The translations under genes were made by a program, and so were the position numbers. Below, piece by piece: positions 7,552-26,510 of a stretch of DNA of 64,000 nt. The notes beneath the pieces were generated by a model. That model was not told the DNA's origin, made no database searches, and worked only from the letters and a program-made list of their open reading frames with translations. This stretch comes from Bartonella grahamii subsp. shimonis (GTDB lineage: Bacteria; Pseudomonadota; Alphaproteobacteria; Rhizobiales; Rhizobiaceae). The number at the start of each line of letters is the position of its first letter. Positions within the stretch are counted from its first letter, which is position 1. The DNA lies in NCBI RefSeq assembly GCF_036327415.1, contig NZ_CP123961.1, positions 1,860,001-1,924,000 of the forward strand, given 5' to 3'.

Positions 7552-7563
7552 TTGCTTTTTTGT

Positions 7564-7634
7564 CTGTAGCTTGTCGGCGGGTTTTGTATATTTTGCCACT
7601 GTAGCTTGTCCAGCGGGTTTTGTATATTTTGCCA
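7564..7634 (+). repeat. Two tandem 35/36-bp repeats after tRNA-Met
   Basis: Units at 7564-7598 and 7599-7634 differ by about two bases around the GTCGGCGGG / GTCCAGCGGG position, and a third partial copy of the GGTTTTGTA core follows at about 7637. They sit 13 bases behind the tRNA, where a prophage attachment site would be expected, but the 3' end of the tRNA itself is not repeated. Confidence 0.7.
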
Positions 7635-7904
7635 CTAGGTTTTGTACCAATTTATTTTTTCTCAAAGAGTTTTAAAGTGGTTCTCAAAGGATCTTCAAAG
7701 ACCTTTCAAAGATCATTTAAAGCCTCTTTTTCTTTTCTGCTCAAAATCACAATTTGAGATGATCAATCATTGAGTTGGAATCGTATTATTTGAGAAGCAG
7801 TATGCATAAAATGGTATGACTTCTTTTAGCATAAATTGACTGATGATTTTTCTGTATCCTAAGCACATTATTCAGGACTTTATTAAAAAGAGAAGCGTTT
7901 AAGG

Positions 7905-8111
7905 AATTCGGTCAACTTGACCAAATTGCTCTTCAGTCTGCAATTGTGCAATGTTTGCACCATTGCTCCTTTTAGGAATTGGGTAAACATTACCCTATTG
8001 CTGTACTCATGCAATAGGATCAACTTGATCCTATTTCTCGTTTTAGCAATTGGTGCAAGTTGCACCTATTCCTCATCACGACCGATCAAAGGGTAAACTT
8101 TACCCTTTGAT
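7905..8111. repeat. Array of six covarying palindromes, about 36-bp period
   Basis: Six near-perfect odd palindromes have centres at 7916, 7953, 7988, 8024, 8059 and 8098. Cores are GGTCAA-C-TTGACC, GTGCAA-TGT-TTGCAC, GGGTAA-ACA-TTACCC, GGATCAA-C-TTGATCC, GGTGCAA-G-TTGCACC and GGGTAAA-C-TTTACCC. The arms differ between units, yet each pairs with its partner; AATT/ATTG flanks are shared. The array lies directly behind the phage D gene. On the minus strand from about 8066 a weak frame with a 12-residue period runs through it (NRVMFTQFLKGA, NLVKLTEFLKRF), so a repeat-coding origin is possible. Confidence 0.85.
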
Positions 8112-8121
8112 TTTCTGTCAC

Positions 8122-9129
8122 TCAGAGGTTTCCTTTTCTCCTGCCTCTTTTCCCTTGTTTGGTGCCTCTAAGGTAATTTCTGTGGTGTAACCCGCTTTGT
8201 TTTTCATAGCGGTGGGTGACGGTAGCGGCTTTCCATAGACCATTGATTTCGCCTCGAAACCCTTGCAAGAGAAGCGGTTGATCCGCCATGATTTCTGGTC
8301 GCCCCGCAAGGGTCAAAGAACCACTGCCCACAGCACGGCAAAGTCGGTCTGATTCTGATGCAGCAGCAGCTTGTGCTTCTTCCTTACAGGTGTAACAAGT
8401 CCGTAAACGCCGCACGGGACCGCTAAACCCTGTCTGATGCTTGACTTGGCATTGCTGCCCTTTTGAGCGATCAAAATAAGCAGCTTCAATGGTGCCATAT
8501 TGCGTGCGTGGCTCGAGGGTGAATTCCCAGTTGGAACAGTCGTATTTATGAAGTTTGAATACGGGTAAATTATCTCCGCTTAAAAACAAAAACTTATTGT
8601 CCTTGATTAAAAAACGTGCCCGCATGCGGTCAGCAAGGCGGGTTAAAAAATCAACAGCCGATTGATCTGTACGCACCACATAAGGCAAAGTTTGTTTGGT
8701 GAACTGGGGACTGACCTTTGCTTGATAGCCGTGGCGTTTGGCGAGTGTCTCGACAATCTCGCCAATGGTTTTATGGTCAAAATGTTCACTCACCTGTTCT
8801 TTGAGTTCTTTACGCATCGAGGCACTTTTGCCGCAAAGACGCAAGATCTCTCCATCACTGCCCCCTGAGCTTACAACCGATTCGATAACAAAACACCCCA
8901 TAAAAGCACTGATGCTGTTCTCATAGCCAAAGATCACCTGGAGCGCACTGTTGCTTGAGGGAACCTCTAAATCATTGCCACTATCATCAAATTCTGCTTC
9001 AAATGTATCGGCTTCATTCCCGGCATGGTCAGTGATAGTTGCGGTTAAAAGACGCTGGTAAAAAACCGCGTGAACAGGTTTGTCTCCCACCTTGACCACA
9101 ATAAAAGGGTGTGTACGCATTAATCCCAT
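8122..9129 (-). CDS. Phage late control gene D protein (P2 gpD-like tail protein)
   Basis: This 335-residue protein matches the gpD family of contractile phage tails, which forms the tail hub together with the spike region. Visible features are an N-terminal beta-rich domain (ITDHAGNEADTFEAEFDD), the hub-type segment QSAVDFLTRLADRMRARFLI near residue 165, and a basic C-terminus (KQGKRGRRKGNL). It overlaps gene X by 10 bases, as in P2-type tail operons. The reading frame is intact. The ATG at 9120 is an alternative start. Confidence 0.85.
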   Translation of the reverse strand: MGLMRTHPFIVVKVGDKPVHAVFYQRLLTATITDHAGNEADTFEAEFDDSGNDLEVPSSNSALQVIFGYENSISAFMGCFVIESVVSSGGSDGEILRLCGKSASMRKELKEQVSEHFDHKTIGEIVETLAKRHGYQAKVSPQFTKQTLPYVVRTDQSAVDFLTRLADRMRARFLIKDNKFLFLSGDNLPVFKLHKYDCSNWEFTLEPRTQYGTIEAAYFDRSKGQQCQVKHQTGFSGPVRRLRTCYTCKEEAQAAAASESDRLCRAVGSGSLTLAGRPEIMADQPLLLQGFRGEINGLWKAATVTHRYEKQSGLHHRNYLRGTKQGKRGRRKGNL

Positions 9130-9374
9130 AGCCGTGTCACCGTGCTTTGGGGATTAGACAACACAAATTCAGGTAAAAAGACTTTTAAGCCTCGCGGTAA
9201 AAGCATACCATATTTGGCAATCTCTGGATTGGCTTCCAAGGTGGCTTCTAAATAGCCTTTGAGTAAACCTGCTTGCCTCCGGTCCCCTAACACAGCCATG
9301 GCATGGTGAAAGCAGATGAGATCGAGACTCATGTCCTCTAGCTCTACAACAACACGCTTTGCTGGTATCTTCAT
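9120..9374 (-). CDS. Phage tail protein X (P2 gpX-like)
   Basis: An 84-residue protein ending with the gpX/LysM-like segment PEIAKYGMLLPRGLKVFLPEF. gpX proteins are small tail components encoded between U and D, exactly as here. Start and stop overlap the neighbours (ATGA with gpU, 10 bases with gpD), so the genes are translationally coupled. Confidence 0.8.
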   Translation of the reverse strand: MKIPAKRVVVELEDMSLDLICFHHAMAVLGDRRQAGLLKGYLEATLEANPEIAKYGMLLPRGLKVFLPEFVLSNPQSTVTRLWD

Positions 9375-9862
9375 GGAATTTGCCCCTCTTGGGTTTGTCC
9401 CTCTTGGGTTTGTCCCTCTTGGTATTGTCCCACTTGGGTTTGTCCTTGCGGTTTTCCGCCATTAAAAAAGGGCAAGAGCGTAATGGAATAGCGGATGCGC
9501 TGTGAGTGACCAGAGCGACTGATATAGTCGTGGTCTTTATTGATCGTGGTGATCACCACGGGTCCATGGAGAAGGACACTATAGGTGGTATCATTGATCC
9601 AACGAAGCATCTGGACCGGCTTTGCTCTTTTGATCGTTGTGGTGATGGCATCAATGGCTACCCGATCACCAAATTCTTCTGGAAACCAAACGCCATGAAT
9701 GGTTTTGGGATCATTGCCATAGCCGGTAAATTGCAAACTGGGAGACCTGCCAAAACGCTCCATACAAACCCATGAGGCAGAAAACTCTTCTTCAAAGGAT
9801 TGGAAATTCAGCCAATCCACATAAAATTGATGCGGACCTAACATCATCAAAGGATCTCTCAT
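9371..9862 (-). CDS. Phage tail protein U (P2 gpU-like) with repeat tail
   Basis: A protein of about 163 residues of the gpU family, the tail terminator, with conserved parts MMLGPHQFYVDW, SASWVCMERFGRSPSLQFTG and the C-terminal beta region HSQRIRYSITLLPFF. The start at 9862 (MRDPLMML) follows GGGAGGGAG; an upstream in-frame start would overlap the T gene deeply. The last 20-odd residues are a Gly-Gln-Thr-Gln-Glu pentapeptide repeat encoded by four 15-bp units at 9384-9443, which is not a normal part of gpU. Confidence 0.8.
   Translation of the reverse strand: MRDPLMMLGPHQFYVDWLNFQSFEEEFSASWVCMERFGRSPSLQFTGYGNDPKTIHGVWFPEEFGDRVAIDAITTTIKRAKPVQMLRWINDTTYSVLLHGPVVITTINKDHDYISRSGHSQRIRYSITLLPFFNGGKPQGQTQVGQYQEGQTQEGQTQEGQIP
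9384..9443. repeat. Four 15-bp tandem repeats in the gpU gene
   Basis: Units of the form CCCTCTTGGGTTTGT start at 9384, 9399, 9414 and 9429 with one or two changes each. They keep frame and code for GQTQE-type pentapeptides at the C-terminus of gpU. Confidence 0.85.
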
Positions 9863-9875
9863 AGGCTCCCTCCCC

Positions 9876-12212
9876 TCATTCTGTTCCCCCATGCAGGGCA
9901 TTAGCGCGTGCCCGTTGAATGGCGTGGGCAACCGTTTGACCAGTGGCAACAGGATCACGGGCGCCATTGACATGCACTGTGACATTTTGATTGTGCGTGG
10001 TGGGGGAGCGCTCTTTGCCTTTTGCTTCTGTGAAAGGGGAACTTGCATGCCCCGCCCCCGCAAATTGTGCAATCGGTTGAATGGCTGTTGTGCCTCCTAA
10101 AAAACTTGGCAAAAACTCTCTTAAATTAATGGACCCAAACCACCCCTTAATGCGGCTTGGCAAAGATTTACAAAAATCTGTCAATTGTGAGATGGTGCCC
10201 ATAAAACCATCGACAATCCAACTCGCTAAATCTTCCCCTGCTTGTTCCATACTTGCCTTGGCACCCTCCGAGAGCTTTTCCCGGACAAAAAAGCTTCCCA
10301 ACCAGCCCCAAAAGTTGGAAAGGCTTTGCTTAACGCCCTCCCACAAACCTTCAAAGCTTTGAACAACAGCGCCAAGCCCTTGTTTAAACTTTTGCCAAGT
10401 TTGAGAGAAATCAAAAGCAGCAGCAATGATATTTTTCCATTTGGTGATGGTGGTGGTATCAGCACCAAAAAAGCGCATGACAGCCTCAAAAGCACGACCA
10501 AAAGCATGTGCTATCCCCCGTGCAAAGCCCTTCATAAAAGAAGAAAAGCGGTCCCAATATTTCCACAAAACAAAACCAGCAGCCATGATCACCGCCACAA
10601 CAGCAGCAACCGCAGCTCCTATTGGGGTAAAAATAGCCCCCGCAACAGAGGCAATAGCAGCTCCAACCACTTCGATCACTGTTCCTACCCAACCAAAGGT
10701 GCTAGCAAATACCGTCCCTGAGACAGCAATCCCCCGCAAAGCGCCCACCAACAAGGTCATGGGGCGTAAGAGTCGAAGTGAACTTGCCCCAAGACCCGCG
10801 GTAAGCAAGCCCAGAGAGCGTCCTGAAGCCAATAGCCCTCGCCAACTTGCCTTCAGCATGCGGCTAAGAGACCCAAGCTTGATAAAAGAGGCAATCAATT
10901 GCAGGATCCCAAGGCGGGTTCCGGCAAAAGTAAAACGTACAACCCGCAAAGCGATGTTAAAAGCCATCAGGGCGGCAATGGTTTTGATGATCACACCGGT
11001 TAAAACAGGGTGTTCATTTGCCCATGCCATAAGAACATTGGTAAAATTGCCAACAGTTTCCATTAAACTGTTGACAGGAGGCAGAAGCACTTCACCAATG
11101 GTAATGCCCAAAGCCACGATACGGTTTTGCAAAAGTTCAAACTGCCGCATGGCGCCGGTTGCTTGTTTGTCTGCCTCTTGCTCCACGGAGCCTTTAAAGA
11201 CTTGTGGGTCTTCAACATAATCTAAAGCTTGCCCTAACAGTTCGGGGTTACCCACCAATTTGGCAAAATCACCGGTAAAATCTCGTCCAGCAATGGCAAT
11301 CAGCGAACGCATCCCCTGTTCGGATTTACCCAACACATTAAAAAAGCGCACCAAGGTGCCGGTGGCATCTTTATCCAAATCTTCCATAAATTTTTGGCGA
11401 GAGAGACCAATATTGGTAAAAGCCTCTTCAATATGTTTACCCCCTGCCTGTATGCGCGCACTCATCGCATTAAAACCACGCGCGGCACTCTCAGGAACAA
11501 TCCCAGCGGAAATCATCGCCGTACCAAAAGCTGCCGTTTCACGGGCTGTCAGTTTAAACATGGTGGCAGCACCGGTGGCGCGATTGGTAAAGTCAGAAAC
11601 TTCACTGGCTTTTGCCGCCATGTGGTTAGAGAGATGATTGATGGCATCACCTAAATCTTCAATCCCTGCCTGATTAAGCTTAAAGACATTGCGCAATTTG
11701 GCAAAACGCTCCCCAATCTGGTCCCCCGTCATATCAAAGGCGACAGCTGCTTTGGCAGCATAAACACTAAAAGCCTCGAGATCTTGTTCACCAATCCCTG
11801 CTTGGCTGGCACTAGTCATCAATTCCAAGACTTCACGCGCCGCTAGCGGAATCTTGGTGGAGGTTTCCAAAGCAAAGCGGCGCAATTCCTTTAAACGATC
11901 AAGGGGGGCATCGAGAACCTTTTCCAAGCCTTTCATTGATTGATCAAATTGCATGGCTTTATAAAGCGGCGCTATTAAGGTTGCTGTTTGCGCAATGGCA
12001 CCCACCATGCGTCCACGCGCTTGGATAAAAGCATTTTGCGCTTTTTCTGTGGATTCTTTCAAGTGCTCAGGGTCAAACCAATTTTTAAAGTGCTGCCTTG
12101 TCTTGTTTTGGAAATGCGCAATATCGAGGCTAAAGGCTCTTAAGTCTCGCTTGGCAGAGGCGATCCCCTCTTGCAGATGATTCACAAAACGGACAACAAG
12201 GGAAACATCCAT
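9876..12212 (-). CDS. Phage tail tape measure protein (gpT-like)
   Basis: A 778-residue protein with an N-terminal helical region, the TP901-type core (GLEKVLDAPLDRLKELRR through AARGFNAMSARIQAGG, about 85-260), several hydrophobic stretches in the middle (about 410-545, such as LVGALRGIAVSGTVFAST and ASVAGAIFTPIGAAVAAV) and a C-terminal region with short amphipathic segments. Tape measure proteins set tail length and leave through the tail during infection. The frame is intact. It sits between E/E' and U as in P2. Confidence 0.88.
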   Translation of the reverse strand: MDVSLVVRFVNHLQEGIASAKRDLRAFSLDIAHFQNKTRQHFKNWFDPEHLKESTEKAQNAFIQARGRMVGAIAQTATLIAPLYKAMQFDQSMKGLEKVLDAPLDRLKELRRFALETSTKIPLAAREVLELMTSASQAGIGEQDLEAFSVYAAKAAVAFDMTGDQIGERFAKLRNVFKLNQAGIEDLGDAINHLSNHMAAKASEVSDFTNRATGAATMFKLTARETAAFGTAMISAGIVPESAARGFNAMSARIQAGGKHIEEAFTNIGLSRQKFMEDLDKDATGTLVRFFNVLGKSEQGMRSLIAIAGRDFTGDFAKLVGNPELLGQALDYVEDPQVFKGSVEQEADKQATGAMRQFELLQNRIVALGITIGEVLLPPVNSLMETVGNFTNVLMAWANEHPVLTGVIIKTIAALMAFNIALRVVRFTFAGTRLGILQLIASFIKLGSLSRMLKASWRGLLASGRSLGLLTAGLGASSLRLLRPMTLLVGALRGIAVSGTVFASTFGWVGTVIEVVGAAIASVAGAIFTPIGAAVAAVVAVIMAAGFVLWKYWDRFSSFMKGFARGIAHAFGRAFEAVMRFFGADTTTITKWKNIIAAAFDFSQTWQKFKQGLGAVVQSFEGLWEGVKQSLSNFWGWLGSFFVREKLSEGAKASMEQAGEDLASWIVDGFMGTISQLTDFCKSLPSRIKGWFGSINLREFLPSFLGGTTAIQPIAQFAGAGHASSPFTEAKGKERSPTTHNQNVTVHVNGARDPVATGQTVAHAIQRARANALHGGTE

Positions 12213-12583: not shown

Positions 12584-12922
12584 GAAACAGTGTTGAGTAT
12601 TACTGTTATTACTTACTTTGATAAATATAAAACTGAATAAATATCACACAAAACATTATCATTACTTTATAAAAATAATATAAATTATGTGAGTATTATA
12701 ATTATTTAAATTTATATAATATAAATAATTATAAGCACATTGTGTGTTAAATATAAATTCATAAAATTTTAATATCAGTTATTTTTTATTTTGACAAAAA
12801 ACCAAAAATATCTTACCAAACAAAGACAATTATCAAAATTAATAACAACTATCCATTTTCACTTCTTTTTATGAAGTTTTCGGGGAAATGAATATTTGGG
12901 GGCTCTCATAAGGAGAATACTA
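12584..12922. promoter_or_regulatory. AT-rich region upstream of first autotransporter
   Basis: About 340 bases, very AT-rich, without a gene. An inverted repeat with 11-bp arms lies at 12698-12708 / 12722-12732. AAGGAG at 12910-12915 is the ribosome site of the next gene. Confidence 0.4.
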
Positions 12923-15900
12923 GTGTATAAAACATTCCTTTTATCATGCACGGCTGCAGCCACTGTTATCCTGTTCAACATCCAGTCCAGTGCACATGCT
13001 GAAACCCTCGAAGTTTCTGAGGGAAAAACCGTATCAGTATCCGATAAAACTTATGAAACTATTCATGCAAAAGATGGCGGAAAAATCATTGGAAAACATT
13101 TAACCATTGTTACGAATAAAGATATAAACCAAAGCATAAACAACGTCTATGCTGTAACAGCAGAAGGTGCTAACAGTGCAATTGAGTTACTGGATGGCAC
13201 AACCATTAAAGGCATTGGTTCTGGCATTTTCTTAGGCCTTGAGGCGAAGGATGGTGCTACACTTAAAATGACTAAGGGAACGATTACAGCTTCTGGAATT
13301 GGTGCCTCCTTATCTGGCATTGGTGCTTCCTTCTCTGACAGTAAAAGTAAAAAAAACAAGCTGGAAGATGTGGTAATATCGAGTGATAACGATAATAATC
13401 CACTATCCTTAGGAATAAATGCCGAAAAAAGCAATGTGAATTTAAACAATGTAACCGTCACGAATGCAAATACGGGTATATTTGCGAATGATCACTCCAC
13501 AATAACAGTCTCTGGAGGATCATTCGATGGGAAAAATGATGGAGTATATGCTAAAGAAGGTAGCATCATTACTTTAAACAACAATGTTACAGTCGCATCA
13601 TCTGATAGCGATGGACTTCATGCAGAAGGTTCAGGAGCCAACATCACAAAGACGGGAGGAACTGTCAGTGGAAAACAAAATGCATTATTTGCAGAAAAAG
13701 GTGGACAGATCGATGTCACGGATGTTGCTTTAACAACAACAGATGGCAAAGGAACTGGCGCAAAAGCCGATGGCGCTAACAGCGTCATTACATTAAAAGG
13801 CAAAACAACCATTGAAAAAGTTACAAACGGCCTTGATGTACAAAATGGAGCTATAGCCAGGATGACCGGTGGTTCTATTGCTGCTTCTCAAATAGGTGCT
13901 CTTTTCAAAGCTAGCGGAAGTGATGAAAACAAAAACACGCTGGAAAATGTAAAGATATCGAGCGGTAAAAATAATCCCTTGATGGATAAAGGAATAAATG
14001 CCGAAAAAAGCAATGTGAATTTAAACAATGTAACCGTCACGAATGCAAATACGGGTATATTTGCGAATGATCACTCCACAATAACAGTCTCTGGAGGATC
14101 ATTCGATGGGAAAAATGATGGAGTATATGCTAAAGAAGGTAGCATCATTACTTTAAACAACAATGTTACAGTCGCATCATCTAATGGTAATGCACTCCGT
14201 GCTGAGGGTTCAGGATCTAAGATCACAATGGCAGGAGGAAAAGTAACAACAATAGGGAATACACAAACTGCATTATTTGCAGAAAAAGGTGGACAGATTG
14301 ACGCCACGAATATTGATCTAACAACAGATGGCAAAGGAACCGGTGCATTTGCAATTGGTCCTGATAGCAGAATTGAATTGCATGGCAATACAACGATTAA
14401 CAATACTTGGAACGGTCTTGGAGCAGTTGGTGGTGGTAAAATTACCAGTGAAAATTTAACCGTAGTCGGTGGTGAAACAAGTGATCAAGACCCCGACAAA
14501 ATCCGCTCTGGTGTATGGACAGAGGACTCTGGTAGTGAAATTACGTTAACGGGCAAAACAACCATTCAAAATTTTGATGAAGGTCTTTATGCAGATGGTG
14601 GGAGTAAAATCATTAGCGGAGATTTAACAATAATCGGTGGTGAATCCGAAAAAGAAACCATTGGTGTAAACACTTGGGAGGCTGATAGTATAGTTGAATT
14701 AAATGGCAAAACAACCATTCAAAATGTTGGTATTGGTCTTTTTGCTGTTGAGGGTAGCACAATTAAGATGGTTAATGGCGCTATTGATGCTAATTCTAAA
14801 AGTCTAGATACCCAATCCGATGCTCTTCAGAATGGGAAGAAAAATGAAATAGAAGCAAAAAAAGTTGCAATGGTTGTAATAAATGGCGGCCATATTGATC
14901 TAACGGATGTCTCTGCAGCAGCAGAAGTTGCCGGTTTACAATTCGCAACTTTCTCTGATAAGGATCCAAATAGCTGGCATAATTCACAAAAATATCATGG
15001 CAATGAAATCAATCTAACCAGTGCAGAGCTTCATGCTGAAAATGGTACTGGAATTCTCGTTGGAGCTTTTGCTGAAAAGAGCATCGAAGATGCTGCTGCT
15101 CCATCAATTGGCACAGTCAATCTTAAAAAATCAGAAATCCATGCTGACGTGTTGTTAGGAGATGGTATTTTTTGGGACAAAACGTCATGGAAAGATAAAG
15201 ATTTGTGGGATGGTAAAGATGTTAAGGCGATCTCCAACGGCACTTTTACATTAAATGCTGATCAGTCTATTCTAGAGGGCAGAGCGAATATTGCTAAAGA
15301 CAGAAATGTACACTTTGATCTGAAAAACGACACAACATGGACGTTGAAAATCAGCAAAAACGAAAAAGATGATAATAGCAATCTCCTTGATATTGCTAAA
15401 AGATCTCGTTCTGATGTTTCTGTGCTTAGTCTTAATAACAGCTCCATTGTTTTTGATAAACCAACAGAACAGCACTACCAAACATTGCATATAGGTTCTG
15501 GTAAACCAGACACAAAATCAGTCTACAATGCAACGGGTGATGCGAAGATTTACTTCAACGCACAATGGAGTGATGGTGCTGCAATAAATGACCAAAAAAC
15601 CGATAGACTTTTGATCAATGGGGATGTCTCTGGAACAACATCAGTTTATGTTACGGGGCGCTTAGAAGGGAACAATATCGAAGCAAATACCTCTGCAGCT
15701 GCCAATGTCCGTGGTCTTTCACTCATTCAAGTTTCTGGAAAAGCAGAAGAAAGCTCTTTCAAACTTGTAAATGGCTATACCACAAGAGGCGGCTTACCGG
15801 ATATGTATACACTCCGTGCCTATGGACCAGACTCAAGCCAAGGCAAAGCTGATATTGCGCAAAACCTGTTTGATGAAAAGAACGAAAACTTCTGGGATTT

Positions 15901-16933
15901 CCGTTTGCAACCCGAACTTCTTGGCTCGAATTCTGGTTCAACTCCTGATCCAGAAACAAATATCCCTGCCATTGCCCCTGTACCACAAACAGCAAGCTAT
16001 TTGGTCATGCCAAATGCTCTCTTCTATACTGGATTAACTGATATAGCTAAACAAAATGCACTTTTAGCCACTATGAGAACATCTGTCTTAGGAAAAGAAG
16101 AGGAAAAACAAACTGGTTTCTTCCTATACACTTACGGAAACACAGGAACCTTATCTTCCAAGCGTGGTCCTCTCAAATACGGTTACGGCGCTGATATCCG
16201 TTATGCGGCTCTACAAGCTGGTGTTACATTGGCAGCAATTGAAGGGCAAAATACCACGACACATTTCGGTCTTGTAGGCACCTATGGACAACTGTCTTTC
16301 ACCCCGAAAAATATCGCAGATGCTGGCAAGAGCACACTGGATAAATGGGCCATTACAGCCTACGGTAGCATACAGCATAGCAGTGGGTTCTACGTTGATA
16401 CACTCTTATCCTATGGTATCCTAAAGGGGCATATCACCAATGCCATCAGAGGAAAGACCGCAAAGTTGAATGATGCCAAAATGTTGAGTGTCTCCACCAC
16501 TGTTGGCAAAGAATTTGCAACCGGAATGGAAGGTTTAACATTTGAGCCACAAGCACAAATTGCCTATCAACATTTGATGTTTAACACCATTGAAGATGCT
16601 GATAACTTTACTGTTGATATGAAAAATCCTTCTCAATGGTTAATCCGTGTTGGTGGGCGTTTGACCAAAACCATTTCCACTGAAAACAGCCGTTCTATGT
16701 CTTTCTATGGAAAAGTAAACTTGATCAAAACCTTTGGTGATGATGGCACCATTCATATTGGCAGAGACTTTGACCTTGAACCTATGGGACCTGCAATTGA
16801 AGGCGGCGTTGGCATCAATGCGCAACTGTCTCACAATTTCTCCCTTCATGGTGATGTAAGCTATCAACAAAAGCTTCAGAAAACGGGTATAAGTGGTGCA
16901 AGCTTTTCAGGCGGCATACGCTATCAGTTTTAA
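12923..16933 (+). CDS. Autotransporter 1 (beta-helix passenger, C-terminal barrel)
   Basis: About 1336 residues. A signal peptide (SCTAAATVILFNIQSSAHA) is followed by a long right-handed beta-helix passenger built of repeats such as SGGSFDGKNDGVYAKEGS and GKTTIQNFDEGLYADGG (about 30-780). A junction region with QKTDRLLINGDVSG and RGLSLIQVSG comes next, and the C-terminal autotransporter barrel (about 1050-1336) ends GGIRYQF. It fits the Bartonella autotransporter group (Iba/CFA-like), secreted through the outer membrane by type V secretion. The GTG at 12923 has AAGGAG upstream. Two identical 192-bp segments lie inside the passenger. Confidence 0.9.
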   Translation: MYKTFLLSCTAAATVILFNIQSSAHAETLEVSEGKTVSVSDKTYETIHAKDGGKIIGKHLTIVTNKDINQSINNVYAVTAEGANSAIELLDGTTIKGIGSGIFLGLEAKDGATLKMTKGTITASGIGASLSGIGASFSDSKSKKNKLEDVVISSDNDNNPLSLGINAEKSNVNLNNVTVTNANTGIFANDHSTITVSGGSFDGKNDGVYAKEGSIITLNNNVTVASSDSDGLHAEGSGANITKTGGTVSGKQNALFAEKGGQIDVTDVALTTTDGKGTGAKADGANSVITLKGKTTIEKVTNGLDVQNGAIARMTGGSIAASQIGALFKASGSDENKNTLENVKISSGKNNPLMDKGINAEKSNVNLNNVTVTNANTGIFANDHSTITVSGGSFDGKNDGVYAKEGSIITLNNNVTVASSNGNALRAEGSGSKITMAGGKVTTIGNTQTALFAEKGGQIDATNIDLTTDGKGTGAFAIGPDSRIELHGNTTINNTWNGLGAVGGGKITSENLTVVGGETSDQDPDKIRSGVWTEDSGSEITLTGKTTIQNFDEGLYADGGSKIISGDLTIIGGESEKETIGVNTWEADSIVELNGKTTIQNVGIGLFAVEGSTIKMVNGAIDANSKSLDTQSDALQNGKKNEIEAKKVAMVVINGGHIDLTDVSAAAEVAGLQFATFSDKDPNSWHNSQKYHGNEINLTSAELHAENGTGILVGAFAEKSIEDAAAPSIGTVNLKKSEIHADVLLGDGIFWDKTSWKDKDLWDGKDVKAISNGTFTLNADQSILEGRANIAKDRNVHFDLKNDTTWTLKISKNEKDDNSNLLDIAKRSRSDVSVLSLNNSSIVFDKPTEQHYQTLHIGSGKPDTKSVYNATGDAKIYFNAQWSDGAAINDQKTDRLLINGDVSGTTSVYVTGRLEGNNIEANTSAAANVRGLSLIQVSGKAEESSFKLVNGYTTRGGLPDMYTLRAYGPDSSQGKADIAQNLFDEKNENFWDFRLQPELLGSNSGSTPDPETNIPAIAPVPQTASYLVMPNALFYTGLTDIAKQNALLATMRTSVLGKEEEKQTGFFLYTYGNTGTLSSKRGPLKYGYGADIRYAALQAGVTLAAIEGQNTTTHFGLVGTYGQLSFTPKNIADAGKSTLDKWAITAYGSIQHSSGFYVDTLLSYGILKGHITNAIRGKTAKLNDAKMLSVSTTVGKEFATGMEGLTFEPQAQIAYQHLMFNTIEDADNFTVDMKNPSQWLIRVGGRLTKTISTENSRSMSFYGKVNLIKTFGDDGTIHIGRDFDLEPMGPAIEGGVGINAQLSHNFSLHGDVSYQQKLQKTGISGASFSGGIRYQF
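13412..13603 (+). repeat. 192-bp exact direct repeat, copy 1
   Basis: Identical base for base with 13991-14182, offset 579 bases (193 codons), so recombination between the copies would keep frame. It codes for 64 residues of beta-helix. Confidence 0.92.
13991..14182 (+). repeat. 192-bp exact direct repeat, copy 2
   Basis: Second copy of the repeat described at 13412-13603. The sequence between the copies is diverged. Confidence 0.92.
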
Positions 16934-17284
16934 ATAAAGGCTGTAAAAATAGCCTATTCATTCTATTCAATTAACAAAAAGGCGTACACTATACTGTCTT
17001 TTTTGTATATAAATCCTAATGATACTACACCTCCCCCCTTCTTAAGAGAGCCCTTGCTTTTTCTACTGCCTGTAAAATCAATATCCACGCCCAACGCCGC
17101 AACATGTTTGAAACAAAGCTTGAAACGTATCAGTGCTGTATAGCAGCCCCAAGCTTTTGTATAACAGATGAGAGCGAGGATATTGTATATTTCTGTTTAT
17201 GTAATCTATGAAACAAGCAGACAGCCTAATTTAGGGAGAAAAAGTTAAAGATGAAAACCAGTTTTCATCTTTACCGTTATTTCT
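16934..17284. other. Intergenic, no gene seen
   Basis: No credible frame. A weak hairpin (AGGCT / AGCCT at about 16938-16955) lies just behind the autotransporter and may act in termination. Confidence 0.35.
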
Positions 17285-17619
17285 TAATTCAGATTACGAC
17301 TTTCAAAAGCATCTAAGGCAATGTCTTTTAAGTAATGGAGATTACGCATTACCTCACGTTTTTGTTTCTCTCATTCTTTAATGGGGTCACGACCATCATG
17401 TAAAAACAGAACGCCATTGGGTTGCACATTCAACGAGCTTTTTTAAGAGGCGTTTCTTAAAGCACCCAAATCCATTTCGTAAAGGCGCCTATGAATGCTG
17501 TGACAGTAAAGGCATTGAGTACCCCATCTTTACGCTTATGAAGGACAGCACCATCATTATTATTTGCCAGCCCCCAATGTGGTAACAGACCTTGCATTAA
17601 GACGGTTCATAAGAGGCAT
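17285..17619 (-). pseudogene. Decayed phage-type integrase, N-terminal part
   Basis: From an ATG at 17619 the minus strand begins MPLMNRLN, then shifts frame repeatedly. The last part reads HDGRDPIKE, a stop, then EVMRNLHYLKDIALDAFES, which is typical of the N-terminal region of tyrosine integrases. Several stops and frameshifts make it dead. It is the best preserved of about ten such copies in the window. Its two-hairpin leader lies at about 17620-17760. Confidence 0.6.
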
Positions 17620-18351
17620 TTTTAGGTCCTTTCTTATACAGTTTTTATCCACGCGCCAGCCCTGCTTGTGGTGTGCAAGAGAATGATTTTACTTGATTCA
17701 AGATAAACAAGTTTTAAATGAGAGAATCTTACGGTATTTGGGACTCTCCTTCAATGTAAAGAATGATAAATTATCATTATAAATAAATATGTTGAATAAT
17801 TTTTATCAAGAAAAATATAAGGTATTTTGATCTAGAATATGTCACCAAGTATGCTGTCTTTTCGCACATGAAATTCATTTTTTCCTGAAGTATTTTCTTT
17901 TCCACTTAAATACGCTTTTCCTCCTCTTGACATGGATTGCGCGGCACATTCATTATCGAATTTGTCTATAAAGCTAAGCAAAGTGTATTTTAGACACTAT
18001 AAAGAAAACAACATTGGAAAAGATAATGATAAAAGAAGCTCTCTCTTCATACTTTTGCTATGTTTACCCCCCGTTTCTTCAATCCATTAGTTTAACACCA
18101 CCTATAAGGATTCATTTATATTTTCATGTACCGTTTTTTAGGCAAACCATTTTGACAATGCTTATCCCTCTTACTCCAAACAATATATTGATTTATAAAG
18201 ATAATTATTTTTTTGCATGTTGAATGAGAGTCCCGAATATCGTAGGATTTTCTTATTTCAAACTTGTTTCATGTTGAATCAATAAAAAATTTCTTGCACG
18301 TCACAAGCAAAGCTGAGGTATAGGTCAAAATTATATAAGAAAGGCTTTAAA

Positions 18352-18600
18352 ATGCCTCTCATGAACTGCCTCAAGTGCCAAGGACAGTCCACAACATTGG
18401 GAGCTAGCAAAATGTGTAGATGGAACTTGCTCTTTATATTAAGCGTAAAGGTATCGGCTTGCTCCTTCGTAAGCGTAAAAATGATGGAACTCTATGGCTT
18501 TAGCGTTATAGCATTCATGACCACCGCCGCGAAATGGGCTGTGCGGACTTAGGAAAGGCCTTTGATATCCTTAAGGAAAAGTCTCTTTAAAGAAAGTCTG
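18352..18600 (+). pseudogene. Decayed integrase remnant
   Basis: The start MPLMNCLKCQGQ and, in another frame, LLLRKRKNDGTLWL then RYSIHDHRREMGCA match the integrase N-terminal region (KRKDGGAQW..RYTIHGRRREMGLG type). It has an internal stop and frameshifts. The leader with hairpins is at about 18221-18351. Confidence 0.55.
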
Positions 18601-18979
18601 TGAATAGCTCCCTCATCTCTTCTTCTTATAATAGAAAAAATTTGCTAATCGTCTTGGTGAGTGCATAAAATAATACACCTCAACGCTATAAAGCTTTTAT
18701 AACGATTGTTCTTAATAGATAATTTTAAATATCATACTTTATAGTATTTTTAGCATAAACTTGACCAAGCTAAGTTTTATGAAATCCATTTTTTCCGACT
18801 TTTTATGATCATGCAAAAAGCTTTTCTTAAGAAAAACTTCAAATCATAGAGAACACTACAAATATAATTCGTTTTGTTGTTTACAATAAAAACATAATGA
18901 TATAGAAGCTGGTCGGGTACTTGCACCATCAGGGGAATGAAGTAAGCATCAAAGCATACCAAATACTAAAGGCATATCT
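18601..18979 (+). promoter_or_regulatory. Upstream region of autotransporter 2, including duplicated leader
   Basis: From 18868 to the coding start this region is nearly identical to 21967-22078. It includes an AT-rich element (TTCGTTTTGTTGTTTACAAT, continuing to ACATAATG) that is also present, diverged, at 26425-26456 before autotransporter 5. A shared promoter or regulator site is the likely explanation. Confidence 0.45.
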
Positions 18980-21457
18980 ATGTGTAAGAAATATATTTAT
19001 AAGAAGAATTTTTTGTTATGTACAATTGCTGGAACTTTCATTTTTTCTCATTTTGCTCCAACTTATGCAAATAGACAACCTCCTGAAATTATTAGTGAGT
19101 TTAAGCTGGTGAAAGGAGAAGAAAAAACTCTTAATAACGTTTTTATCCGCAATGGATTGAGCGCAGTGCACGCCTCTGAAAAAGCAATTGCCACAATTAC
19201 GAACTCAACAATACATTCAGCTTCGTTTGCTTTTGCTGTATCACAAGGTGGACGTATTAATGCTAAAGGAATGAACGTTAATGCCTTGTATACTGGTCTA
19301 TCAATTTCAAATGGTATCATTAACATTGAAGATTCATTTATAGAAAGCAAAAGGGAATCCGGTATTATTTTTCATAGCATTTTAGATTTTTTTCTGAAAG
19401 ATGGTGAAGAAGTTATCAATAAGGCAATTCTTAATAATACAAAACTTCTTGTGAGAAATGGTGTTGGTATCTTAGGACCATCATCTTCAAAGTCTGTTGC
19501 CGAGGTTCAACTTAGAAATTCAGAAATTCGTTCTGATGTATTATTACAAAATAACGTAAAAAAGAAAACAGATTCAGATCCTCATCCTGTGACGTTCGTA
19601 TTAACCGCCGATAATTCGATTATGGAAGGAAGAGCAAGAACCTTAGCAGTAAATACGACTGTTTTTAATTTAAACAACAATAGCAAATGGTATTTAAATG
19701 TAAGTCAATACGACATAAATCGTGATTTTAGTTCATTTAATTATGCACTCCATGACATTAAGCAACGAGCGCTATCTACTGTTTCAGTACTGAATTTTAA
19801 TAATAGCTCTATTGTGTTTAATGCGCCACATACGCTAGCAAAGAGTCAATATCAAACCTTGAGTGTAGGAAGAACAATTGAGCTCCCTAATCAACACGAA
19901 AACAGGGACTCCGCTACAGAAACCGTTTATACTGCTGTAGGTAATGCAAGGATTTATTTCAATACAGAATGGAGTGATGGTTTAGAAAGAGAACAACAAA
20001 AAACGGACCGCCTTCTTGTCCATGGGGATGTATCAGGCATCACAACAATTAGTTTCAATAGCCTTTCAAAAGGTGAGCCATCAAAAGAAGAAGCTTCTAT
20101 TCCCGCGAATATGCGTGGACTGTCACTCATTCAAGTATCTGGAAAAACAGATGAAAATGCCTTCAAACTAGCAAATGGCTATGTCACAATGGGTGGTTTG
20201 CCTTATAAATATGTCTTAAATGCCTATGGACCGACATCACGTCTTGGAAAAGCAGAGAGCACTCAAAGCCATTTAGGAGAAGTAACTCAACAATCACAAG
20301 AAAAGGGCTCAAAAACCGACATGACCCCCGTTTTATTAGGCGGAATGGTTTTAGAGATTGAGAATAATATAAAAGATGAATCAACACCAAATTCTGAGCA
20401 AATAGGGAGCACACAAAACCGTTTGAGAGAAAATAAGAATTTCTGGGATTTCCGCTTGCAAAGTGCAACGCTCGATGATGAAGGAAAGATCAGAGCTCTC
20501 GTTCCCCAAGTGGCAAGCTATTTGTCCATGCCTAATGCACTGTTTTCAGCTGGGCTAGCTGATATAAACAATCAAAATATTTTACTGAACGCAATACAAG
20601 AAACAGGCTTTAAGACAAAAGATCATAAAAACAAAGGGCTCTTCTTCTCGACTTATGGCAATAAGATGACATTATCCTCTCACCGTACGCCATTACAATA
20701 TGGCTATGGTGCCGATATTCACTATGCTGCTTTACAAGCAGGCATTACATTAGCAGCTCTAGAAGATCAAAACATGACCACCAATTTGGGTCTTTTCGGG
20801 ACATATGGGAAATTAGCTTTCACCCCAAAAGATATGGAAGGTGCTGACCAGAGTACACTCAATAAATGGTCAATTGCTGCATATAGTGGACTGCGTCATA
20901 ATAATGGTACATATATCCATGCTCTCTTTTCCTATGGAATGCTCAAGGGAGATATCACCACAGCTCTCATAGGAAAGACTGCAGAATTGAAAAACGCTGA
21001 TGCATTCAGTGCATCGGCGACCATTGGACAAAAGTTCGAAACCAGTAAAAAAGGATTGGTCTTTGAACCACAAGCACAAGTTGTTTATCAGCATCTCATG
21101 CTTGGCACACTCTCAGATGTCGATGGCTTTGATGTAGATATGGGAAATCTTTATCAATACTTAGTGCGTGTTGGTGGGCGCTTAACGCAAACGATGCCTT
21201 CTATTGAAAAAGGCGGTATTCTTTCTTTCTATGGTAAATTGAATATTGTTAAAGCTTTTTCTAATAATGGAACCATACAGATCGGTGAATCGTTCCACCT
21301 TGATTCTATGGGCGCGGCCCTTGAAGGTGGACTTGGTGTAAATGCACAATTATCACAAAATATCGCCCTTCACGCTGATGTTAACTATCAACATAAGCTT
21401 CAAAAAGCTGGTATATCTGGAGCAAGCTTTTCAGGCGGAATACGCTATCAGTTTTAA
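18980..21457 (+). CDS. Autotransporter 2
   Basis: An 825-residue type V secretion protein: signal peptide (LLCTIAGTFIFSHFAPTYA), a short beta-helix passenger (about 40-240, for example ITNSTIHSASFAFAVSQGG), the conserved QKTDRLLVHGDVSG and RGLSLIQVSG segments, a Gln/Ser/Glu-rich linker, and a C-terminal barrel from about residue 545 ending GGIRYQF. Its first 33 residues are identical to those of autotransporter 3, and the DNA around the start is also nearly identical, which points to duplication. A strong hairpin terminator follows. Probably of the Iba type. Confidence 0.9.
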   Translation: MCKKYIYKKNFLLCTIAGTFIFSHFAPTYANRQPPEIISEFKLVKGEEKTLNNVFIRNGLSAVHASEKAIATITNSTIHSASFAFAVSQGGRINAKGMNVNALYTGLSISNGIINIEDSFIESKRESGIIFHSILDFFLKDGEEVINKAILNNTKLLVRNGVGILGPSSSKSVAEVQLRNSEIRSDVLLQNNVKKKTDSDPHPVTFVLTADNSIMEGRARTLAVNTTVFNLNNNSKWYLNVSQYDINRDFSSFNYALHDIKQRALSTVSVLNFNNSSIVFNAPHTLAKSQYQTLSVGRTIELPNQHENRDSATETVYTAVGNARIYFNTEWSDGLEREQQKTDRLLVHGDVSGITTISFNSLSKGEPSKEEASIPANMRGLSLIQVSGKTDENAFKLANGYVTMGGLPYKYVLNAYGPTSRLGKAESTQSHLGEVTQQSQEKGSKTDMTPVLLGGMVLEIENNIKDESTPNSEQIGSTQNRLRENKNFWDFRLQSATLDDEGKIRALVPQVASYLSMPNALFSAGLADINNQNILLNAIQETGFKTKDHKNKGLFFSTYGNKMTLSSHRTPLQYGYGADIHYAALQAGITLAALEDQNMTTNLGLFGTYGKLAFTPKDMEGADQSTLNKWSIAAYSGLRHNNGTYIHALFSYGMLKGDITTALIGKTAELKNADAFSASATIGQKFETSKKGLVFEPQAQVVYQHLMLGTLSDVDGFDVDMGNLYQYLVRVGGRLTQTMPSIEKGGILSFYGKLNIVKAFSNNGTIQIGESFHLDSMGAALEGGLGVNAQLSQNIALHADVNYQHKLQKAGISGASFSGGIRYQF

Positions 21458-21493
21458 GAAAAAGCAAAAAACAACTCATAGTCTATTCATTTG

Positions 21494-21535
21494 TAATAAA
21501 AAAGCAGTACGGATGTACTGCTTTTTTATTACAAT
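21494..21535 (+). terminator. Strong hairpin terminator after autotransporter 2
   Basis: A perfect 17-bp stem (21494-21510 with 21515-21531) has a GGAT loop, with A-run and T-run edges, 37 bases after the stop codon. Confidence 0.85.
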
Positions 21536-21966
21536 CTTTCGGAAAGAGCCATCAATAACGGTTCTTTCTATACAGCTTTCTTGAAAGGATTAATTTCATT
21601 CAAACCAAATGCAATAAAATTCTTTATCTCTCAATGACTGTTGAAGTCTCAAAAGAGCTGCCTTTTTGATTTATAAAAATCGAATGGATTCAAAAAAATT
21701 CATAGTGAATAATTCTATATGCAAGAAAACCAACTGAAAGTTTTTTGACAGCGCGCAACAAATCTTCTCCAAAAACTTTGTAGAGTTTTCATAACAACAG
21801 CCTTAAGCAATAAATATCCTTGCAAAATATTTTGATTTTTAGCACTTTAAAACAAAAATACTTATCAAACTAGGTTTTATGAAATCCATCTTCGCTGCAT
21901 TGCGCTTTCTATTTTAAAAGCTCTTCTAAGACCAATTTTTAAACAATAAATAACAAAACAATAATA

Positions 21967-22180
21967 TTCGTTTTGTTGTTTACAATAAAAACATAATGAT
22001 ATAGAAGCTGATTGGGTACTTGCGCCATCAGGGGAATGAAGTAAGCATCAAAGCATACAAAATACTAAAGGCATATCTATGTGTAAGAAATATATTTATA
22101 AGAAGAATTTTTTGTTATGTACAATTGCTGGAACTTTCATTTTTTCTCATTTTGCTCCAACTTATGCAAATAGACAACCT
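21967..22180 (+). repeat. Duplicated leader and signal-peptide region (copy of 18868-19081)
   Basis: About 214 bases nearly identical to 18868-19081, differing at a handful of positions. It covers the shared upstream element, the ribosome site and the first 33 codons of autotransporters 2 and 3. Confidence 0.9.
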
Positions 22181-24487
22181 CTTGAGATTCCTACGGTCCA
22201 AGTAGATGATGGAGAAGAGAAGAACCTTCATAATGTTTTTGTTCGTAGTAAGTATGATGCCGTGGTTGCTAAGAAAGGTCATATTACCATTACAAACTCA
22301 ATAATGCACTCAGGCTTTACTTTGCTTTCTGCAACGTTAGGTGGTCAAATTAATGCCAAAGGAATTGTGGGAAAGGCAGAAGAGCGTGGTTTGTCACTCA
22401 CAAACGGCATAATCCATATTGAAGATTCAACATTAAACATCATAGGTCACAGCAAAGCCTATGGTATCAATTTTGGTTATATTCCAAGCTCTGCAATAAA
22501 AGAAGGAGAAGAAGTTGTAAACAAAGCAATTCTTAATAATACAAAACTTCTTGTAAACGACGGTGTAGGTATTTTCGGACCGCATTATTCCAAAACTAAT
22601 GCAGTGTACCTTACAAACTCAGAAATTCGTTCTGATATGTTATTAAAAAATGGAGTCTCACCCTTCGTCGAGATTCCACCTACTACTTTTACATTAGACG
22701 CTGATAATTCGATTATAGAAGGAAGAGCAAAAACGCTTCCTCAAAATACAACGGTTTTCACCCTAAACAATAACAGCAAGTGGCATTTAAAAATTAGTCT
22801 ATTTGAATTGGAAAATAGTTTTAGTCTATTTGATTACACGCTCCTTGATCTTAAGCAACGAGCACAATCAATTGTTTCAGTCCTGACCCTTAATAATAGC
22901 TCTATCATATTTAATGCGCCGCATAAACTAGCAAACAATCATTATCAGACCTTGCATGTAGGAAGACATCCACAAAAAGCAGAGCAAAACGGAAGCTCCG
23001 ATGCAACAATGGCTTACAATGCATTGGGCAACGCAAGGATTTACTTTAATACCGAATGGAGTAATGGTCTTACAAAAGAACAACAGAAAACTGACCGTGT
23101 TCTCGTTCATGGTGATGTCTCAGGCACCACAATGATCTATTTCAACAATCTTTCAAAGCATCCAGAATCATTGGATAATGAAGATTCAATTCCTTTGAAT
23201 ATGCGTGGGCTCTCACTCATTCAAGTTTCTGGACAAGCAAATGAAAATTCCTTCAAACTTGCCCATGGCTACACCACAATGGAGGGCTTACCTTATAAAT
23301 ACATACTCAATGGCTATGGGCCAACATCCAGCCGTGGGAAAGCCGATAGGGCACAAAGTCATTTAAGCGGAATATCACAAGGATCAAAACAGAAAGATAC
23401 GCAAAATACCAATGCATCATCCCTTGAAGAAGAAAACAACGGACAAAATTCCTTGGAAGAAAATGAGAATTTCTGGGATTTCCGCTTGCAAAGTGCGACT
23501 CTCGATGATGAAGGAAAGATCAAAGCTCTTGTTCCTCAAATGGCAAGCTATTTGGTTATGCATAATGCAATATTCTCCTCTGGCTTGGCTGATGTAAACA
23601 ATCAAAATACACTGTTAGATAATATGCATTCAACAGTTTTGGGATTAGAAGGTCATAAAAAGAAAGGGGTCTTCTTATCAACTTATGGCAACAAGGTGAC
23701 ATTATCTTCCAGCCGTAGTCCATTGGAATATAGTTATGGTGCGGATGTTCATTATGCTGCTATACAAGCAGGCATGACATTAGCAACGTTAGAAAATCAA
23801 AATATGACCGCGAATCTTGGTCTTTTAGGCACATATGGAAAGCTCACTTTTACACCAAAGGATATGGAAGGTTCTGACAAAAGCACACTGGATAAATGTT
23901 CCTTTACGGCATATGGGAACCTCCACCATGACAATGGTTTCTATATTAATGCACTTTTCTCTTATGGCATTTTAAACGGACATATTACAACAGCTCTTAT
24001 CGGCAACGCTACAGAGTTAAATAATACGAATACATTAAATATATCAGCTACCGTTGGAAAAAAACTAGCAACTGGTGTTGAAGGGGTGTCCTTTGAACCA
24101 CAAGCACAACTTATTTATCAACATATTGTATTTGGCACTCTTTCAGATATCGATGGCTTCCAGGTTAATATAAATACCCCTCATCAATGGTTGGGCCGTA
24201 TTGGAGGGCGTTTAACGAAAATAATGCTTCCCATTGAAAAAGATCGTGTTCTTTCTGTTTATGGTAAATTGAATGTCATCAAAGCTTTTGGTGAGAAGCG
24301 CACTATCGATGTTATTGAATCTTTCCATCTCGATTCTATGGGATCTTCACTTGAAGGTGGGCTTGGCATTAACGCGCAGCTTTCTAAAAATATCGCACTT
24401 CATGCTGACGTTAATTACCAACATAAACTTCAAAAAGCTGGTGTCTCTGGAATTAATTTTTCCGGTGGAATGCGTTATCGCTTTTAG
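22079..24487 (+). CDS. Autotransporter 3
   Basis: An 802-residue paralogue of autotransporter 2: identical signal peptide region, a diverged short beta-helix passenger, the QKTDRVLVHGDVSG and RGLSLIQVSGQANENSFKL segments, and a C-terminal barrel ending GGMRYRF. Passengers of copies 2 and 3 differ much more than their 5' ends, which suggests gene conversion of the start region or selection for passenger change. Confidence 0.9.
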   Translation: MCKKYIYKKNFLLCTIAGTFIFSHFAPTYANRQPLEIPTVQVDDGEEKNLHNVFVRSKYDAVVAKKGHITITNSIMHSGFTLLSATLGGQINAKGIVGKAEERGLSLTNGIIHIEDSTLNIIGHSKAYGINFGYIPSSAIKEGEEVVNKAILNNTKLLVNDGVGIFGPHYSKTNAVYLTNSEIRSDMLLKNGVSPFVEIPPTTFTLDADNSIIEGRAKTLPQNTTVFTLNNNSKWHLKISLFELENSFSLFDYTLLDLKQRAQSIVSVLTLNNSSIIFNAPHKLANNHYQTLHVGRHPQKAEQNGSSDATMAYNALGNARIYFNTEWSNGLTKEQQKTDRVLVHGDVSGTTMIYFNNLSKHPESLDNEDSIPLNMRGLSLIQVSGQANENSFKLAHGYTTMEGLPYKYILNGYGPTSSRGKADRAQSHLSGISQGSKQKDTQNTNASSLEEENNGQNSLEENENFWDFRLQSATLDDEGKIKALVPQMASYLVMHNAIFSSGLADVNNQNTLLDNMHSTVLGLEGHKKKGVFLSTYGNKVTLSSSRSPLEYSYGADVHYAAIQAGMTLATLENQNMTANLGLLGTYGKLTFTPKDMEGSDKSTLDKCSFTAYGNLHHDNGFYINALFSYGILNGHITTALIGNATELNNTNTLNISATVGKKLATGVEGVSFEPQAQLIYQHIVFGTLSDIDGFQVNINTPHQWLGRIGGRLTKIMLPIEKDRVLSVYGKLNVIKAFGEKRTIDVIESFHLDSMGSSLEGGLGINAQLSKNIALHADVNYQHKLQKAGVSGINFSGGMRYRF

Positions 24488-24633
24488 AAATCTTAGCTCT
24501 CTATTTTGACGTATAAGCAACGCTGAGATGAAAACAGTGCTGCTTGTATTTTACTACATTACAGAAATTGTAGTGTGTCAAAAAGTGGCTCATTTTTAGC
24601 AAAACAAAGAAAAATACCTTAAGGAACATCTCT

Positions 24634-26378
24634 ATGCATAAGAATCTTTTATTATGTACAGCCGCTTTTACTTCGTTTTTTTTTCTTTTAATTTCACGTC
24701 TACCAGTACCGCTTCTGGCTTAAGCCCTCAAACACACCATACCCTTGAAGGAATTATACAATTACCTGAACAATATCGCCATGCTACTGATTTAATAAAC
24801 ACACCAACACAAGCAAAAAAAAATCTTGAGAAGATAGCCTCTGACGCCATTATGGGAGATAATTCGCACTTAAACCAAGTACTTGATGCCGATAACCAAC
24901 GGCGTATTGACGCTGCGCGCCAACAATGGGTAAAGCAAGACAATCGCGAATGGAATAAGTTACAAAATAAAGCAGAAATATTACATAAAGCAGCAAAAGT
25001 TGATAGTGCATTACAAGGACAAAACAAAGAACTTTCCAATACTTTACACAAAGCAGTACTCGATGCTTTGAACACCGATGAAATAACAAACGTGGAGAGA
25101 AAAGGAGAAACATCGTCTCCTCTATCTAAAGAGAATAAACAACCTCTTACTTCCAGCATAGGGCAAGGACTCGCTAGTAATAAATTACCACCTGCTAATG
25201 TTGCCGCCCAGCACAAGGGCAATTCATCCTCAAGAGCAGATCGTGGAATTATACAGCCTAAAATAAATGAAAATTTGCAATCTGATATTGATCTCCAAAC
25301 AAACACCGCTTCCTCAGCATCAAAAACGACTCTTAACACATCCGCAAAAGCTCATGTAAAATTACCCACAAAAGTTAGGAGAACCGCTACCGCTGATACC
25401 GAAAGCACCTCTAAACTTACAGATAATAAAGAAACCGCAACTTCTGCTTCTCTTGATTTGGCAACAAACACCAAAACGCTTACGCCACAAAAAGAAAGCT
25501 CTTTAGCTATGCCTATCGCGATGTTTTCTGTGGGGTTTTTTGATGTCAACAATCAAAATATCTCGTTAGACAATATGCAAATAACAATGTTTGAACCCAA
25601 AGATCATCCAGAGAGAGGTATTTTCTTATCCACTTATGGCAATAAGAGCACCTTTTCTTCCAGCATTCAAGCAGATATTCGCTATGCTGCATTGCAAGCA
25701 GGGACAACATTAATAGCGCTAAACGATCAAAATATCAGCAGCAATTTTGGCCTTTTTGGAACATATGGGAAATTGTCTTTTAGTCCTAAAAACAAAGAAA
25801 GCTCTCGTAGGAATATGCTTGATAAATGGTCACTCACCGCATATGGAAATATTCAGCATGACAGTGGCATCTATGCAAGTGCGTTTCTCTCTTATGGAAT
25901 TTTCAAAGAAAATAACACCACAGCTCTCATCAAACATACCTCAAAAGTAAATAATAGTAAAACATTAGGAGCCGCTGCAACTGTTGGTCAAAAACTGTCA
26001 ACCGGTTTGGACGGTGTAATCCTAGAACCGCAAGCACAACTTGTTTATCAACGTCTCATGCTTTGCTCTTTCTCAGATGAAGATAACTCTAAAATAGACA
26101 GAAGCAAACCTCATCAATGGTTGTTCCGTATTGGCGGACGTTTAACGCAAAACAAAGGCCATGCCCTTTCCTTCTACGGCAAACTGAACATGATCAAAAC
26201 TTTTAGTAAAAACTTTCCACTTGCTGCTATGGAAGCTTTAATCGAAGGTGGCTTTGGTATTCAGACGCACTTATCGCAAAATATCGAGCTTCATAGTGAT
26301 CTCAGCTATCAACATAAATTCAAAAAAGCTGGTATATCTGCAATAAATATTACCGCTGGAATGCGCTATCACTTTTAA
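24634..26378 (+). CDS. Autotransporter 4, barrel with linker only; frameshifted at a T9 tract
   Basis: The natural start is the ATG at 24634 (MHKNLLLCTAAFTSFFF) with AAGGA ten bases upstream. After nine T bases at 24676-24684 this frame ends at a stop near 24720, while the barrel frame continues as SFNFTSTSTASGLSPQ. One added T would join a complete signal peptide to the rest. The frame-2 ATG at 24654 has no ribosome site and starts inside the signal peptide. The product has a low-complexity linker of about 250 residues, no beta-helix passenger, and a barrel ending GMRYHF. It is either phase-variable and off, or a pseudogene. Confidence 0.75.
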
Positions 26379-26424
26379 AAATACTTGTATTCCTATCTTG
26401 AAATATAAAGCGCTCTCATTATGT

Positions 26425-26456
26425 TTCGTTTTGTCTCTTACAAAATAAACATAATG
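26425..26456 (+). promoter_or_regulatory. Shared upstream element of autotransporter 5
   Basis: TTCGTTTTGTCTCTTACA followed by AATAAACATAATGAGG aligns with the element upstream of autotransporters 2 and 3. It lies about 60-85 bases before the start codon. The regulator is unknown. Confidence 0.4.
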
Positions 26457-26510
26457 AGGTCGAAGTTTTATCTTTTATGAGAGAGGGGCAATATTTAGGA
26501 ATACATCCAT

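Follow-up and report, generated by a model that had tools for sequence, protein, structure and literature searches.

Palindromes behind a Bartonella prophage tail gene as probable binding sites of a ParB-like phage protein that encodes its own site

Introduction

The closest described relatives of the locus analysed here are the ParB–parS systems, represented by Spo0J of Bacillus subtilis and ParB of Caulobacter; one parS is located inside the spo0J gene. Tandem palindromes are also found in sopC of plasmid F, where they are spaced by about 40 bp, are bound by a ParB relative and are alike from unit to unit. Another kind of repeated palindrome, the Rickettsia palindromic elements, is defined by insertion into many unrelated genes. 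The canonical parS consensus is TGTTCCACGTGAAACA, as given in PMC7614844. Comparison of Noc–NBS with ParB (PMC7383237) has shown that a few residues in or near the helix–turn–helix (HTH) determine which bases are read, two specificities having been dissected at the bench. PMC10954446 describes parS mimics in SGI1, a mobile element that hijacks the ParB of IncC: its sites are for a ParB encoded outside the element. Here, we analyse a window of 64,000 nt from Bartonella grahamii subsp. shimonis (NZ_CP123961.1 positions 1,860,001 to 1,924,000, forward strand), in which six palindromes follow the phage tail gene gpD. We argue that they are very probably parS-like binding sites of a ParB-like protein of Mu-like transposable phages that encodes its own site, and that the array of the window is probably the right-end cluster of a decayed prophage. 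No description of self-encoded sites in the linkers of phage ParB proteins was found among the matches listed in the open-licence text of PMC.

Results and discussion

The original prediction had placed six palindromes behind a phage tail gene, with centres at 7916, 7953, 7988, 8024, 8059 and 8098 and gaps of 37, 35, 36, 35 and 39. These values proved exact on recheck; the gene is gpD, and the array comes after its stop codon. The cores differ between units, yet each core matches its own partner arm, as had been claimed, with one inner mismatch in the unit at 7916. Under a strict rule (pairing at every offset from 2 to 7 and at 9 or more of the 11 offsets 2–12) five of the six palindromes pass, the unit at 7916 failing through this mismatch. 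When the window was simulated 60 times with a first-order Markov model, the maximum number of strict centres per 210 bp was one in 55 copies, two in three and zero in two, and the array, which was not equalled in any of them, is thus real. TIGR arrays, whose guides measure 36 nt, were weighed as a source of the period and set aside, with no search made for Tas.

Array DNA was matched in 9/41 genomes including that of the window, all of the same genus. Two unit patterns were matched in 27/61 and 18/61 genomes of the genus, part of these matches being unrelated palindromes, while the reversed-pattern control was empty or nearly empty. The array loci that we opened lie after gpD, or inside a ParB-like gene (phrog_3264) between the ParB_N domain and the HTH, or are decayed versions of either. 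The product of this gene matches phrog_3264 (8.8e-112 for locus L018 and 7.8e-66 for L056) and the ParB_N domain (PF02195; 2.9e-12 and 7.6e-10, respectively), and it has the ParB/Noc/KorB fold and a DNA-binding HTH. The motifs AG.HR and EN..R, which we take to be the cytidine triphosphate (CTP) boxes, are conserved in the six ParB-like sequences aligned. No ParA was found among the 20 open reading frames (ORFs) scanned beside two of the ParB genes (E 1e-8).

Within the ParB gene, 79 of the 90 units detected by script share one reading frame, that is, they are translated. The proposal that the units are a repeat-coding tail of D was therefore right as to in-frame coding but not as to the gene, which is the parB-like one and not gpD. 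The Bartonella linkers, parsed in 111 of the 120 listed homologues (the linker was not parsed in the other nine), range from 37 to 113 residues and are built from few recurring modules. Arm pairing is almost complete across the 49 distinct units despite their differing bases, and the linker residues therefore covary as the codons of a palindrome require. In the second unit of one linker (L017) an in-frame TAG falls in the palindrome, at a position that in most of the coding units of its class is occupied by TTG, with a T.T mismatch.

The linker palindrome extends beyond Bartonella. Among phage-type homologues, 16 were compared: L056 of Bartonella and 15 from a further 14 genera of the order. 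Their linker palindromes pair 9 to 12 of 12 bases; 15 chromosomal-type ParBs score 7 to 9, over a shorter compared stretch. In two sets of IMG/VR loci the strongest palindrome is at the linker position in 44/48 and 65/80. Pooling gives 144 homologue rows, with L056 as the one row known to come from a genome of the genus of the window, in which a linker site was chosen by pairing only, the helix not being considered. The strongest palindrome of the gene lies in the linker in 128/144 rows (121/137 without duplicates), with varied sequence, the linker making up 5.9% of residues. Each of the offsets 2 to 6 is paired in 103 to 107 of the 108 distinct sites, several pair types being used. An exact GTGCC-type core occurs in 4/20 phage records, once in each. 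Compared with TGTTCCACGTGAAACA, the palindrome cores are not canonical parS.

The recognition helix predicts the palindrome base. Of the 128 rows with a linker palindrome, 13 even-centred ones (L056 among them) were set aside, leaving 115 (109 without duplicates), and six of these, whose residue at column 336 is M, A or T, were dropped, leaving 109 classed rows. In 109/109 (104/104 without duplicates) the base at offset 6 agrees with the helix residue at column 336, the permuted maximum being 61, and a second helix residue matches the base at offset 3 in 110/115. Contrasts between disjoint switched pairs give 37/37, a mere count that follows from 109/109. The neighbouring regulator gene (phrog_2345), used as a control, has no such residue–base link. 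Over all pairs, core similarity follows identity of the whole HTH weakly (Spearman 0.14), single columns being the informative ones. The association of helix and site is thus read from the alignments, and binding by the ParB-like protein is what it suggests. In two pairs of phages (L256/L268 and L183/L184) the N-domains are 0.97 and 0.93 identical and both the helix and the palindrome differ, which looks like exchange of a linker–HTH cassette.

In Bartonella, each linker holds one to five sites, and the cognate one is nearly always among them. Leaving out four of the 31 DNA linkers, whose helix is unassigned, a site of the own helix is present in 27/27, under a helix-to-core assignment picked after inspecting the linker–helix tables. 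The same exclusion removes ten of 96 distinct linker–helix pairs and leaves 86 tested. A mutual information sum that needs no assignment reaches 1.60; the highest value in 300 permutations was 0.74. The location in the linker, the match of the helix residue and the cognate sites in Bartonella together make self-encoded ParB sites the most likely identity of the palindromes, rather than RNA hairpins.

Gene content points to a Mu-like phage as the host element, both in Bartonella (L166) and in another genus (L164). The ParB gene is surrounded by genes for a Ner-like repressor, phrog_9734, the phrog_2345 regulator, the transposase MuA, MuB and lysis; L166 also has a late activator. Three Bartonella prophages have MuA and the gpD array on one strand at distances of 31.4, 31.8 and 31.5 kb; the only palindromes with such a core (at least 10/12 paired) found in them lie within ParB or at the right end, and the right-end array contains the cognate site of the own ParB in 3/3, that of G053 with one mismatch. 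The ParB of G053 has the helix EESVRRL and a single CGGTC site, and its array repeats the six units of the window array without a change of order (L045 compared with L051). Two more gpD-type arrays, near 1348665 and 1503431 of G063:C1, have no MuA match nearby and are probably further prophage remnants.

The cores of the window array, read away from gpD, are of the types GTA, TGC, ATC, GTA, GCAAA and GTC/cGTC. The first palindrome adjoins gpD (8085..8111, arms 8085-8097/8099-8111, with no strand assigned to this or the other units) and has the core GGGTAAA, a site type assigned to the helix class KESVKLL. The second (8048..8070, arms 8048-8058/8060-8070; core GGTGCAA) and the third (8011..8037, arms 8011-8023/8025-8037; core GGATCAA) are of the types assigned to QDVVKRL and QVSVKRL, respectively. 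The fourth (7977..7999, arms 7977-7986/7990-7999) reads GGGTAATGTTTACCC in the gpD sense and is of the GTA type with a T.T pair beside the centre; the fifth (7940..7966, arms 7940-7951/7955-7966), GTGCAAACATTGCAC in the gpD sense, is of the type assigned to KRAVHYL. The sixth (7905..7927, arms 7905-7915/7917-7927) combines the arms TGGTCAA and CGGTCAA, with one inner mismatch, and is of the GTC or cGTC type, to which KESVKRL and EESVRRL correspond. The window array thus holds five of the seven Bartonella site types counted (GTC and cGTC being taken as one), the GAC type being missing. A second copy in the same genome is identical over window positions 7633-8700, and a third, at 539.6 kb, is degenerate. 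The array had no match in blastn searches of phage and plasmid collections.

Four tail genes precede the array, all on the minus strand: gpD (8122..9129, phrog_52; PF05954 at 28.8 bits, slightly under the cut-off of 30.1), a baseplate hub gene (9120..9374, phrog_46), a tail protein gene (9371..10072, phrog_76) and the tape measure gene (9876..12212, phrog_28). On the other side of the array, two unstranded 24-bp direct repeats, GCGGGTTTTGTATATTTTGCCACT, lie 36 bp apart at 7577..7636. An 18-bp part of this element comes after the array in the prophages G023, G053 and G063 (with one mismatch in G063), and the repeats are probably the right end of the phage, where they would be end repeats bound by the transposase; an end repeat of this type was sought at the left ends of the three prophage stretches and was not found. 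A tRNA-Met adjoins the remnant. The tail genes and the array are present, and the genome has neither MuA nor a ParB-like gene of the phrog_3264 type; the array therefore appears to be an orphaned right-end cluster, left by a decayed Bartonella prophage whose left half would be gone. Elsewhere in the window, a 209-aa ORF at 37831-38460 (minus strand) matches a ParA-like partition family (phrog_164, 4.3e-53), and long ORFs (574 to 1345 aa) lie to the right of the tail genes at 12896-29630 (plus strand), the first of them without a PHROG match at 1e-5.

We propose that the linker codons just before the HTH also spell the palindrome that would be read by the helix of that HTH, and that the ParB-like protein and its target site may be inherited and altered together as one cassette. 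Bartonella prophages have a second such cluster, noncoding, at their right end behind gpD, some 32 kb away from MuA. ParB dimers could load onto the palindromes, slide and bridge, gathering phage ends or copies for transposition; alternatively, ParB might silence nearby promoters, as KorB does.

Several observations weigh against this proposal. Palindromy often extends over 12–16 bp per side, beyond the 16-bp parS. The linker palindrome exceeds all 60 synonymous shuffles in only 10/16 phage-type genes, leaving six that do not, and the strongest palindrome is outside the linker in 16/144 rows. A right-end cluster was found in 0/10 contigs of non-Bartonella phages. The tables used for counting are also those from which the residue classes and the assignment of helices to cores were derived. 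Non-helix columns (230, 232, 221, 211 and 236) also rank in the first eight by association, mostly with offset 7, which is probably a clade signal. Helix class and site type do not correspond one to one: GTA is present in 20/20 and GCAAA in 19/20 of the KESVKLL linkers, and KRAVHYL linkers contain GCAAA in 12/13 and GTA in 11/13. In Bartonella, linkers and arrays also contain several non-cognate sites, for which a system with a single specificity has no need. Cores in Bartonella linkers are intact in 34/39 cognate sites versus 34/48 non-cognate ones (Fisher p 0.075). Non-cognate sites may be relics of earlier specificities, which fits this weak trend of decay, or they may be a panel for the ParB of other phages, which fits their good state. 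An extended form of the latter idea, which we regard as doubtful, is that arrays and linkers are multi-specificity panels with sites for the ParB of rival or partner phages in addition to their own, so that one phage would be held, helped or silenced by the ParB of another, and orphan arrays would become ParB-capturing islands after the death of the phage.

The palindromes could also form RNA hairpins in phage transcripts (attenuators, 3′ stabilizers or RNAs resembling type III antitoxins), with stems kept by covariation, but we consider this very unlikely. The stems do have conserved AANTT loops, and over offsets 1–12 G.T mismatches number 38 versus 27 for A.C, with offsets 1, 11 and 12 accounting for the excess; at offsets 2–10, however, the counts on the sense strand of these ParB-like genes are 19 and 22. 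A role as RNA would not predict that a single residue of the HTH helix names the base, and only a tRNA reaches the Rfam gathering score in the window. Hence, of the two forms of selection first suggested, protein-binding dyads fit, the cores tracking the recognition helix of the ParB-like protein, and paired RNA is disfavoured by the mismatch counts and the lack of an Rfam match. Recombinase sites had been named there as one further alternative. The proposed chain of terminators drew little or no support from the terminator scan, with two terminator-like sites in 7560-8200 against 0.5 expected. The lead towards a type III toxin–antitoxin system also found none: there is no Rfam antitoxin RNA match and the four genes at 8122-12212 are the tail genes, no search aimed at ToxN having been made.

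Still less probable are mobile palindromic repeats like the Rickettsia elements, that is, selfish in-frame insertions whose arms are kept matched by templated (quasipalindrome) repair. Such repeats would account for in-frame units in variable number and for mixed units in which each arm is of a different type, such as GGTGCAAGTTGATCC. Yet the array loci opened are all the parB-like linker, the region behind gpD or decayed versions of these two, relatives in 14 other genera have a single linker palindrome, and the match with the helix is beyond the reach of repair bias; a pure repair-bias account was abandoned because this association emerged. Least probable of all is that a different regulator from the operon binds the sites, which would follow the ParB HTH through linkage only: phrog_2345 is the next gene in the annotated loci, and cassette exchange would take neighbours along, but we rate this lower because the neighbouring regulator shows no residue–base link.

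If the palindromes are self-encoded ParB sites, each gene of the family would seem to hold a DNA-binding domain together with its target, and hundreds of phage genomes would become a table of helix residue against base. How an HTH changes specificity without losing its site becomes directly testable in sister phages with near-identical N-domains in which helix and site have switched together. Moreover, covariation of amino acids in a protein linker can be the shadow of palindromy in DNA, and a likely role is offered for repeat arrays that resemble RNA structure.

Comparison with known systems

The phage system resembles ParB–parS in its ParB_N domain, its HTH, its ParB/Noc/KorB fold and its palindromic sites. 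It differs in that the phage sites are not the parS sequence, change between phages along with the helix and are located in linker codons in 128/144 rows, and in that the neighbouring ORFs scanned beside the phage ParB genes include no ParA. Unlike those of sopC, the units of the window differ in core. As in the Noc–NBS/ParB switch (PMC7383237), a few residues in and near the HTH would set the bases read, whereas the phages offer many switches made in nature, each with its site attached. Like SGI1 (PMC10954446), the window array would have sites without a ParB of its own; unlike it, the array is probably a prophage remnant with several specificities.
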